DNA of 64,000 nt from Acidisphaera sp. L21 (lineage in GTDB: Bacteria; Pseudomonadota; Alphaproteobacteria; Acetobacterales; Acetobacteraceae): positions 1 to 64,000 of the forward strand of contig NZ_LMUY01000102.1 of assembly GCF_009765685.1 (NCBI RefSeq), read 5' to 3'. Under the pieces are notes generated by a model that saw nothing but the letters and a program-made list of their open reading frames with translations, was not told the DNA's origin and ran no database searches. Both the position numbers and the translations under genes were made by a program. Shown piece by piece: positions 10,616-23,048 of this stretch; within the stretch, counting starts at the first letter, position 1; each line of letters begins with the position of its first letter.

Positions 10616-10655
10616 CGCGAATTCCGGCTCAGCCTGGTGGCCCGTCGAGAGAATT

Positions 10656-10681
10656 TACAGCTCACGAAACCGAGAGCTGTA
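10656..10681. promoter_or_regulatory. Inverted repeat, candidate enhancer site for a sigma-54 activator
   Basis: Perfect 8-bp arms TACAGCTC (10656-10663) and GAGCTGTA (10674-10681) are separated by 10 bases, so the arm centres lie about two helical turns apart. The centre is about 90 bases upstream of the expected start of transcription from the sigma-54-type promoter at 10732, which is a normal place for an activator site. There is no T-run, so a terminator for the ATPase gene is less likely. The activator is not in this window. Confidence 0.5.
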
Positions 10682-10731
10682 GGAATCCTCTAACCCTTTG
10701 ACATCTAACGCAGAAAACCGCTCCACCGACA

Positions 10732-10747
10732 TGGCATGCTGATTGCT
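10732..10747 (+). promoter_or_regulatory. Sigma-54 (RpoN) promoter, -24/-12 type
   Basis: The sequence TGGCATGCTGATTGCT matches the RpoN consensus TGGCACR-N4-TTGCW at nearly every specified base, with the GG and GC dinucleotides exactly 10 bases apart. It lies 33 bases upstream of the ATG of the PEP-CTERM gene at 10780, leaving room for a short leader with a TTGGAGG ribosome binding site. Sigma-54 control of PEP-CTERM genes is known from other proteobacteria with the PrsK/PrsR pair. Confidence 0.75.
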
Positions 10748-10779
10748 CATATGCGATTAGAATGCGTTTGGAGGTTTTG

Positions 10780-11469
10780 ATGGCCCGACTATCGACGTGG
10801 TTAGTTGCTGCTGCGGTGATCGTGGTAGCGCCGGCGGCTATGGCCGCTCCAGTCTATTCCAACGATTTTTCGTCCACTGCGACCGATTTTACCGGTGCGT
10901 GGAGTGTGAAGACTTCCCCCTCGGGGCAAGGATTCCTTGCGAGCAGCGGTCCGACGACGCAAACCACCCTATCCCTTATTGGGCTTGCCGCGCACACCGA
11001 GGTCGATGTCGCGTTTACGATCGATGTCGTAGGCAGCATGGACGGAACCGGCAGTGTCATCAACGGTGGTGGTGCAGGAGACTTCTTCACCGTGAGCTAT
11101 TTGGGCGCGACGGCCGGCACGGCCTTCAACCAGGCGTTTGCCAACTACGGTGGTGGCAACCTTCAAACATACCCGACGCCCGGCAGCGCACCGGCGACCG
11201 GCGCAACAACGACGAATGCACTCGGTTATTCCGGTTTTCCGGATTCTGGGAACGGCATTCAGGATTCCGAATACAGCATCACTTTGACGATCCCAGATGC
11301 TGCATCAAATTTCGCTCTAGCCTTCACCGATGGGTCGAACGAGGGTACTGGGAACGAATTCTATGGCATCGACAACGTGGACGTTTCCATCGTGAACAAT
11401 CCGGTTACAACCGTTCCGGAGCGATTTCCCTCGCGGTGTTTGGAAGCGGCATGCTGGCCTTCGGTTTGA
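10780..11469 (+). CDS. PEP-CTERM family secreted protein, sorting signal frameshifted
   Basis: This is an exported protein of the type that ends in a PEP-CTERM sorting signal and is processed by an exosortase. The ATG at 10780 has TTGGAGG 7 bases upstream and opens a signal peptide ending in AMAAPV. The mature part (about residues 25-210) is rich in Gly, Ser, Thr and Asn and resembles the lectin-like domains of PEP-CTERM proteins (VYSNDFSS, then EFYGIDNVDVSIVNN near the end). The frame reaches VTTVPE and then runs into an unrelated tail to 11469. The expected hydrophobic, Arg-ending signal is present one frame away up to 11489. As encoded, the protein would be secreted but not sorted. Base composition is lower in GC than its neighbours. 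Confidence 0.75.
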   Translation: MARLSTWLVAAAVIVVAPAAMAAPVYSNDFSSTATDFTGAWSVKTSPSGQGFLASSGPTTQTTLSLIGLAAHTEVDVAFTIDVVGSMDGTGSVINGGGAGDFFTVSYLGATAGTAFNQAFANYGGGNLQTYPTPGSAPATGATTTNALGYSGFPDSGNGIQDSEYSITLTIPDAASNFALAFTDGSNEGTGNEFYGIDNVDVSIVNNPVTTVPERFPSRCLEAACWPSV

Positions 11470-11489
11470 TCCGCCGCCGTCGCGTCTGA
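11421..11489 (+). other. Out-of-frame PEP-CTERM sorting signal
   Basis: Read from 11421 this stretch gives AISLAVFGSGMLAFGLIRRRRV and a stop, a complete PEP-CTERM transmembrane and Arg-rich tail. One extra G after 11421 would join it to TTVPE as VPEAISLAVFG. It is therefore the lost end of the gene at 10780, separated by a one-base (or 4-base) deletion or a sequencing error. Confidence 0.8.
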
Positions 11490-21830: not shown

Positions 21831-21906
21831 GTCCTGTTCGTCTAGAGGCCTAGGACACCGCCCTCTCACGGCGGTAACAGGGGTTCGAATCCCCTACGGG
21901 ACGCCA
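21831..21906 (+). tRNA. tRNA-Glu (CTC anticodon)
   Basis: A complete cloverleaf is present. The acceptor stem pairs GTCCTGT (21831-21837) with ACGGGAC (21897... read 3' side to 21902, one G-T pair), the anticodon stem CCGCC/GGCGG encloses the loop CTCTCAC with anticodon CTC at 21865-21867, and the T-loop is GTTCGAATC. The CCA end is encoded (21904-21906). It reads GAG codons. A lower-GC segment starts right after it. Confidence 0.95.
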
Positions 21907-22133
21907 ATAATCGGATAAGGTTGCCGTTCGAGTATTGGAGATCGACGCTTCTTCCTGGTTTCGGGAGTAGATCGGGGTAAGCGTCGGGCGGTAGATGCTG
22001 CGGTTGCTGTCCTGTCTGGCGCATCCCCGAGGGGTATATTGGGAACCCAAGGCGAAGTTCCCTGTGTCAGATTATGTTACACACGCTGCGTTGTCATATT
22101 CAAAATTCTCTCGATTTCAAGCATCTAATGTCG

Positions 22134-22149
22134 TGGCCCAAATCTTGCC
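22134..22149 (+). promoter_or_regulatory. Sigma-54-like promoter of the second PEP-CTERM gene
   Basis: TGGCCCAAATCTTGCC keeps the GG and GC dinucleotides exactly 10 bases apart and matches the TGGC and TTGC blocks of the RpoN consensus, with mismatches at three less critical places. It lies 45 bases before the ATG at 22194. A 6-bp inverted repeat with the same 10-base spacer as the one near 10656 (GGGAAC at 22041, GTTCCC at 22057) lies about 110 bases upstream, but its sequence differs. Confidence 0.55.
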
Positions 22150-22193
22150 ACTCTAACTCTGGGCTCCGTAAGGAGTGAAACTGGGGTTTAACA

Positions 22194-23048
22194 ATGAAAT
22201 CTTGTTTGGTCCGCGAAGCTCCGACGTCAGGCCTAACAGCCAAAGCTGGGAAAGCGGCGAGGTCACCGCAACGAAACCTAATTGGGGGCCAACTCGTCCT
22301 CATCGCGCTGGCGCTCGTCATAGGTAGCCCGGCGGCGCGCGCTTCAGTCATGGCCGACGCCTTCTCCTACACGTATATTCCGTATCGCCCATCGCAGGAT
22401 AACACCGTCACTGGTGCCAACTCCGCAACCAGCGTCGATCCTTACGGCTTCTCGTCAGCCTCCGTGAACCAAACCACTGGAACCATGCACTTGTCCTCAC
22501 AAGGGCAGTTTGGGGCGGCATCTATCGAGATCGATGAGATGGCCACGCCGGATTACACCGGGACCTTCACGTATACGTTCGAATTGATCGGTTCGATCCA
22601 AGTGTCGCCGGTGCCCGCCCCTTACTTGGATGCCAGCGGCTATAGCATGCAATTCGGGGTGGACGCCCAAAGTTGCAACAGCGTCTACACCCAGTACGCC
22701 ACACCAGCGGCTAGCACCGTCGATCGTTACTTAACCGGAGTGTGTTCTGCCACCAGTGGCGAGAGCTTGAACCTGAAGATCCTGGCGAGCGTCCACACCA
22801 GCGGCACGGTCAGTTCGGCCAACTTCGCCGACACGGGAATCTTCCATATCGACGTGCCCGCTGGCGACTCGCTCGGCTACTCGGACGCCACATTTCTGAG
22901 CGATCCGCAGCCATTCGAAACCGTCTCAGTCCCCGAACCGGCTGGAGTCATGTGCCTTGCGACGGGGTTCGTGATTCTGGCGTTGGCGCGACGCCGGCGG
23001 CGGTGGAGTTTCTTTTCGCATTCAGACGATAGCAGCCCGCAATACTAA
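22194..23048 (+). CDS. PEP-CTERM sorting domain-containing secreted protein
   Basis: This 284-residue exported protein ends with an intact PEP-CTERM signal: VPEPAGVMCLATGFVILALARRRRRW, then a 14-residue tail, which is longer than usual. The N-terminus has about 30 basic residues before the hydrophobic core of the signal peptide (LVLIALALVIGSPAARA), so the real start might be further in, although no better ribosome site is visible. The middle is Ser/Thr-rich and beta-like, with two Cys that could form a disulfide. Such proteins are processed by an exosortase, not found in this window, and usually belong to extracellular polysaccharide or biofilm systems. A sigma-54-like promoter precedes it, and the GC content is lower than in the core genes. 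Confidence 0.8.
   Translation: MKSCLVREAPTSGLTAKAGKAARSPQRNLIGGQLVLIALALVIGSPAARASVMADAFSYTYIPYRPSQDNTVTGANSATSVDPYGFSSASVNQTTGTMHLSSQGQFGAASIEIDEMATPDYTGTFTYTFELIGSIQVSPVPAPYLDASGYSMQFGVDAQSCNSVYTQYATPAASTVDRYLTGVCSATSGESLNLKILASVHTSGTVSSANFADTGIFHIDVPAGDSLGYSDATFLSDPQPFETVSVPEPAGVMCLATGFVILALARRRRRWSFFSHSDDSSPQY

Follow-up and report, generated by a model that had tools for sequence, protein, structure and literature searches.

A two-part element upstream of PEP-CTERM genes was described in 2006 for Proteobacteria, including the alphaproteobacterium Rhodospirillum rubrum: a 17-nt motif 1 that ends in TTTACA and was assigned to PrsR, followed at a mean spacing of 62.8 nt (range, 32 to 92) by a sigma-54 motif 2 (Haft et al. 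2006, PMC1569441). In that study the element matched the presence of PrsK/PrsR/PrsT exactly, and EpsH was found wherever PEP-CTERM occurred. The pepA gene of Aquincola tertiaricarbonis RN12 is RpoN dependent, with a −24/−12 site mapped by primer extension (PMC9850573), and a Zoogloea resiniphila PEP-CTERM gene is under RpoN and PrsK-PrsR control as cited in PMC9012009. Our literature search returned nothing specific to Acetobacteraceae on sigma-54 control of PEP-CTERM genes. The sequence-only reading of the DNA studied here, which called such control little described in this group, is only partly right: the element has been known in Proteobacteria since 2006.

The window (the whole stretch of 64,000 nucleotides from Acidisphaera sp. 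L21 that was analyzed) contains the following features around a gene that starts at position 10780.

10643..10659, + strand: PrsR box (Haft motif 1) CGTCGAGAGAATTTACA, recognized by comparing the DNA upstream of relatives' PEP-CTERM genes
10656..10681, no strand: perfect 8-bp inverted repeat TACAGCTC-N10-GAGCTGTA, overlapping the 3' end of the PrsR box
10732..10747, + strand: predicted sigma-54 (−24/−12) promoter TGGCATGCTGATTGCT, from the sequence, PWM score 17.7
10769..10774, + strand: ribosome binding site around TGGAGG, from the sequence, with GGAGG preceding the ATG
10780..11472, + strand: secreted protein gene with signal peptide MARLSTWLVAAAVIVVAPAAMAAP; reading stays open through VPE, after which the PEP-CTERM frame is lost
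11423..11489, + strand: out-of-frame rest of the PEP-CTERM tail, ISLAVFGSGMLAFGLIRRRRV (hydrophobic stretch, RRRR), in a second frame ending at 11489

The 10732–10747 site is very probably (roughly 0.85) a sigma-54 promoter of the enhancer-dependent type that controls PEP-CTERM genes. Such a promoter is of an already known kind; what is uncertain is almost entirely the condition of the system to which it belongs. The 16-mer lies where it had been reported, with GG at 10733–10734 and GC at 10745–10746 in standard spacing; it differs from TGGCAC-N5-TTGCW at one position (T for C), and its score falls inside the range of 6.6 to 20.4. It is located upstream of the gene, as claimed, although 32 bases rather than 33 separate it from the ATG at 10780. 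The element is outside coding sequence, in the intergenic stretch 10616–10779. The good ribosome site and the locally lower G+C content that had been noted were both recovered, the latter as 51% in 10616–10779 and 58% in 10780–11489 versus 66.7% in the whole window. A plasmid collection yielded no match to the region around the site. Without mismatch, TGGCAY-N5-TTGCW occurs 28 times in the 6.38-Mb genome, compared with 7 times for the reversed pattern, and 2 of the 28 matches precede two of the four readable PEP-CTERM genes; by simple arithmetic, any one start would have such a match in its 190 upstream bases with a chance of ~4e-4.

The PrsR box became visible only when the upstream regions of relatives' PEP-CTERM genes were read side by side. 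It fits 9 of the 11 fixed positions of TGTCGG-N6-TTACA and has a PWM score of 17.7, the leave-one-out range in genomes with PrsK and PrsR being 10.9 to 24.5. The locus resembles the 2006 element in its 17-nt box ending in TTTACA, the order of the motifs, the −24/−12 motif and the intergenic position, as well as in the 72 bp between box and site, within the published 32 to 92, and the 32 bases to the start codon, for which the published minimum is 23. Like Aquincola pepA, it would be an RpoN-dependent PEP-CTERM gene with a predicted enhancer sequence upstream of the −24/−12 site; the Aquincola and Zoogloea systems differ in belonging to other Proteobacteria, in the presence of PrsK-PrsR and in their floc phenotype. 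The inverted repeat is absent at the other three PEP-CTERM promoters of the genome, and when upstream regions of PEP-CTERM genes were screened for dyads or inverted repeats in common, nothing exceeded the shuffles. Spacers outside the common class of 59 to 65 keep the helical phase (p ~2e-4 versus uniform spacers, in a post hoc test).

The protein encoded at 10780 has an N-terminal signal peptide that is clear by eye, and its open frame ends in ...TTVPERFPSRCLEAACWPSV. Its in-frame product matches no Pfam or NCBIfam family and has no in-frame C-terminal PEP motif followed by a hydrophobic stretch and a basic tail. Read across the break, with an X at the junction, the tail scores 15.0 bits against PF07589, below the cut-off of 20.7, and matches the floc_PepA C terminus with an E value of 5e-6, also below curated cut-offs. 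An intact VPEPASWALM...RRRR tail is present in a distant homologue, 36% identical, from a Phenylobacterium MAG. Since the tail is recognizable across the break and the homologue has it intact, this was most likely once a PEP-CTERM gene, its tail now appearing broken in the assembly; the frameshift may reflect an error in the sequence. Its earlier description as a PEP-CTERM gene therefore agrees with the recognizable tail but not with the gene as sequenced, which shifts frame directly after VPE and lacks an in-frame signal. By full-length score the protein is not PepA, to which it is similar in the tail only.

A PF07589 search of the genome at E values up to 1 marked five places. Two scored above the cut-off and two narrowly missed it, and the fifth falls within an apparent unrelated dehydrogenase. 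The 10780 gene was missed because of its frameshift. Leaving out the dehydrogenase match and a gene cut by the end of contig C18, and adding the 10780 gene, gave a readable set of four. A −24/−12 site and a PrsR box precede 4 of 4 PEP-CTERM genes with readable upstream DNA in the assembly, the sites lying 32 to 44 bases before the start and the boxes fitting at least 9 of 11 fixed positions. The spacers between box and site are 72, 52, 41 and 145 bp, the last of which, unlike the other three, exceeds the range published by Haft et al. The four genes are spread over three contigs, and the tail is in frame in three of them, the exception being the 10780 gene. One lies in the same window.

22065..22081, + strand: PrsR box TGTCAGATTATGTTACA of the window's second PEP-CTERM gene, 52 bp upstream of its sigma-54 site
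22134..22149, + strand: weaker sigma-54 site TGGCCCAAATCTTGCC, 44 bases before the ATG
22194..23048, + strand: the window's second PEP-CTERM gene, with tail SVPEPAGVMCLATGFVILALARRRRR in frame

The sites of the remaining genes are TGGCACGCTAATTGCA (contig C158) and TGGCACGTATGTTGCC (C101). In the region 21831–22193, a tRNA-Glu gene (21831–21906) is found shortly upstream of the window's second PEP-CTERM gene, which starts in another low-GC patch. Box and site taken as a single pattern have three matches in the 6.38 Mb, all of them upstream of PEP-CTERM genes, and the reversed control gives 0; the C158 gene escapes this pattern, its spacer being outside the allowed range. The genome-wide enrichment that had been proposed as a check is thus present, and the suggested regulon scattered over the genome finds its counterpart in four genes on three contigs that share one two-part promoter in a genome with rpoN. 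This enrichment of site and upstream box at PEP-CTERM genes, together with rpoN, also supports sigma-54 control of the 10780 gene.

The same pattern was followed through 200 genomes of the family, in which it has 234 matches versus 15 for the control. It is carried by 50 of 74 exosortase-positive and 12 of 126 exosortase-negative genomes (Fisher p ~1e-17). In ten genomes whose starts were read directly, a site with at most one mismatch precedes 28 of 65 PEP-CTERM genes versus 0.33 expected (reversed pattern, 1; other strand, 0), a count in which the window's second PEP-CTERM gene, at 22 kb, was taken as site-less owing to a mispredicted start, direct reading giving a site with two mismatches. 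That the match at TGGC-N7-TTGC is due to chance and another promoter drives the 10780 gene is very improbable: at two mismatches the window has as many matches as its shuffles, but box and site together are confined to PEP-CTERM genes in this genome, the pattern correlates with exosortases across the family, and a search upstream of the gene found no sigma-70-like promoter.

Of the genes that had been named for checking, rpoN is present (TIGR02395, 402 bits), but prsK, prsR and the exosortase gene are absent from the assembly, a draft of 162 contigs that is 98.8% complete. The exosortase profile PF09721 (EpsH/XrtA), which matches 74 of the 200 family genomes, has no match in it; PrsK was not found, no PrsR was recovered above the cut-off or by tree, and the XrtA-locus ATPase was not found either. 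In contrast to the strict co-occurrence reported in 2006 (PMC1569441), the element thus stands here in an assembly with neither PrsK nor PrsR, and PEP-CTERM genes stand in one with no exosortase. The PrsK/PrsR control assumed earlier by analogy finds no counterpart in the assembly.

The genome encodes five enhancer-binding proteins: NtrC, NtrX, an FlbD-like protein and one each on contigs C135 and C95. NtrC and NtrX pass curated cut-offs, and FlbD is the best model for the third, just under its cut-off. In the tree, PrsR forms a separate clade with full support. The C135 and C95 proteins group there with activators from G016, a genome that encodes a distinct PrsR in addition. The C-terminal helix SRPTLY/SRPTIY, common to the eight PrsR proteins, is absent from the four enhancer-binding proteins read here; NtrX was outside the tree and helix sets, and its identity rests on the NCBIfam assignment. 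The C95 and C135 activators were considered as PrsR and ruled out by tree, curated cut-off and recognition helix, and the neighboring kinases were ruled out as PrsK, with scores far below the cut-off.

Beyond the sites, their enrichment and spacing and the genes missing from the assembly, all established by computation, we propose the following mechanism. RpoN-containing RNA polymerase would form a closed complex at 10732–10747. A PrsR-type activator of the NtrC family, bound at 10643–10659 in helical phase about seven turns upstream, would convert it to the open form, and transcription of the secreted surface protein gene would then begin at ~10758. This promoter is one of four like promoters that form a small scattered PEP-CTERM regulon, whose cis half is intact and whose trans half (PrsK, PrsR, exosortase and XrtA-locus ATPase) is absent from the assembly. 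The whole locus may have been lost recently in the lineage, leaving an orphan regulon that is starting to decay, of which the frameshifted tail of the 10780 gene and two weaker −12 elements elsewhere may be signs. Because of the broken tail and of eight exosortase-negative family genomes with at least two promoters, we put recent loss, as opposed to an assembly gap, at slightly better than even. This explanation draws on only four genes, and on a PrsR box that at 9 of 11 positions is not perfect. By PWM score the sites here are not clearly weaker than those of genomes with PrsK and PrsR; this argues against prolonged decay and would be compatible with a PrsKR/XrtA locus that escaped assembly.

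That the PrsK/PrsR/XrtA locus is present in the organism and missing from the draft, the regulon being ordinary and complete, is the strongest alternative, though a somewhat less probable one. In several relatives (e.g., G003 contig C75 and G098 contig C33) the genes for PrsR, PrsK, the ATPase and the exosortase adjoin within ~20 kb; clustered in this way, all the trans genes could be removed by one loss or hidden by a single gap. The promoter scores are in the normal range, and the end of contig C18 cuts through a PEP-CTERM gene, which shows that the assembly does have gaps close to genes of this kind. By eye, no XrtA-locus genes were recognized on C18, and a plasmid collection gave no close match that would place an XrtA locus on a known plasmid of the family. 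Against a gap, the assembly is 98.8% complete, and both ends of the locus and its middle gene are all missing. In addition, exosortase is absent from 8 of 46 family genomes with at least two two-part promoters, which is above what listed incompleteness alone suggests.

Two of the family genomes, G004 and G013, have the promoters and lack exosortase, PrsK and PrsR, so that at least two other genomes without exosortase and PrsKR show the same combination as this one. Conversely, G082 and G146 have an exosortase and neither PrsK nor PrsR, and, as would be expected, they show no PrsR-box promoter matches; the box therefore seems to track PrsKR rather than exosortase. G102, at 90% completeness, has exosortase and promoters and no PrsKR. 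In exosortase-negative G013, which has kept PrsR-box promoters, a short fragment at C141, 7307–7711, resembles the XrtA-locus ATPase and contains an internal stop; it is possibly a relic of a decayed XrtA locus.

Replacement of PrsR by another enhancer-binding protein (the C135 or C95 activator, NtrC or NtrX), with a regulon that works without PrsR, seems unlikely. Promoters are kept in a genome without PrsR, five candidate proteins are present, and RpoN is probably in active use, as ABC importer and amidase-like genes lie downstream of many of the genome's other perfect sigma-54 sites. However, the SRPTLY/SRPTIY helix occurs in none of the four proteins read (NtrX being outside that set), close relatives of the C135 and C95 proteins coexist with PrsR elsewhere, and the conserved box is the PrsR one. 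Similarly doubtful is the broader proposition that PrsR-box/sigma-54 regulons persist in functional form in alphaproteobacterial lineages truly devoid of PrsK, PrsR and exosortase, with either a different activator acting at the box or surface proteins that need no exosortase sorting to function.

These data extend the 2006 sigma-54 rule for PEP-CTERM genes to a wide sample of one alphaproteobacterial family, in which a simple two-part pattern detects the regulon at little background. The odd feature is the occurrence of PEP-CTERM promoters in an assembly without the usual activator (PrsK/PrsR) and exosortase. Genomes that have the promoters and lack exosortase and regulator offer natural cases for the fate of a regulon and its sorting signals after loss of the master locus, and they bear on a possible tendency of draft assemblies to miss that locus. 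The presence of a PEP-CTERM gene or of such a promoter is by itself no proof of a working exosortase system.

Other perfect sigma-54 sites in the genome (L009, L010, L012, L013, L016, L023, L024, L026, L029 and L031) appear upstream of ABC importer, amidase-like and LLM monooxygenase-like genes, judging from their translations by eye, and look like a nitrogen- or sulfur-scavenging RpoN regulon. On contig C135 (L041, 5937–9826), the pair of kinase and enhancer-binding protein genes directly precedes a gene for a small secreted protein that has a perfect sigma-54 site (TGGCACAGCGCTTGCT); the layout resembles ZraS/ZraR/ZraP.
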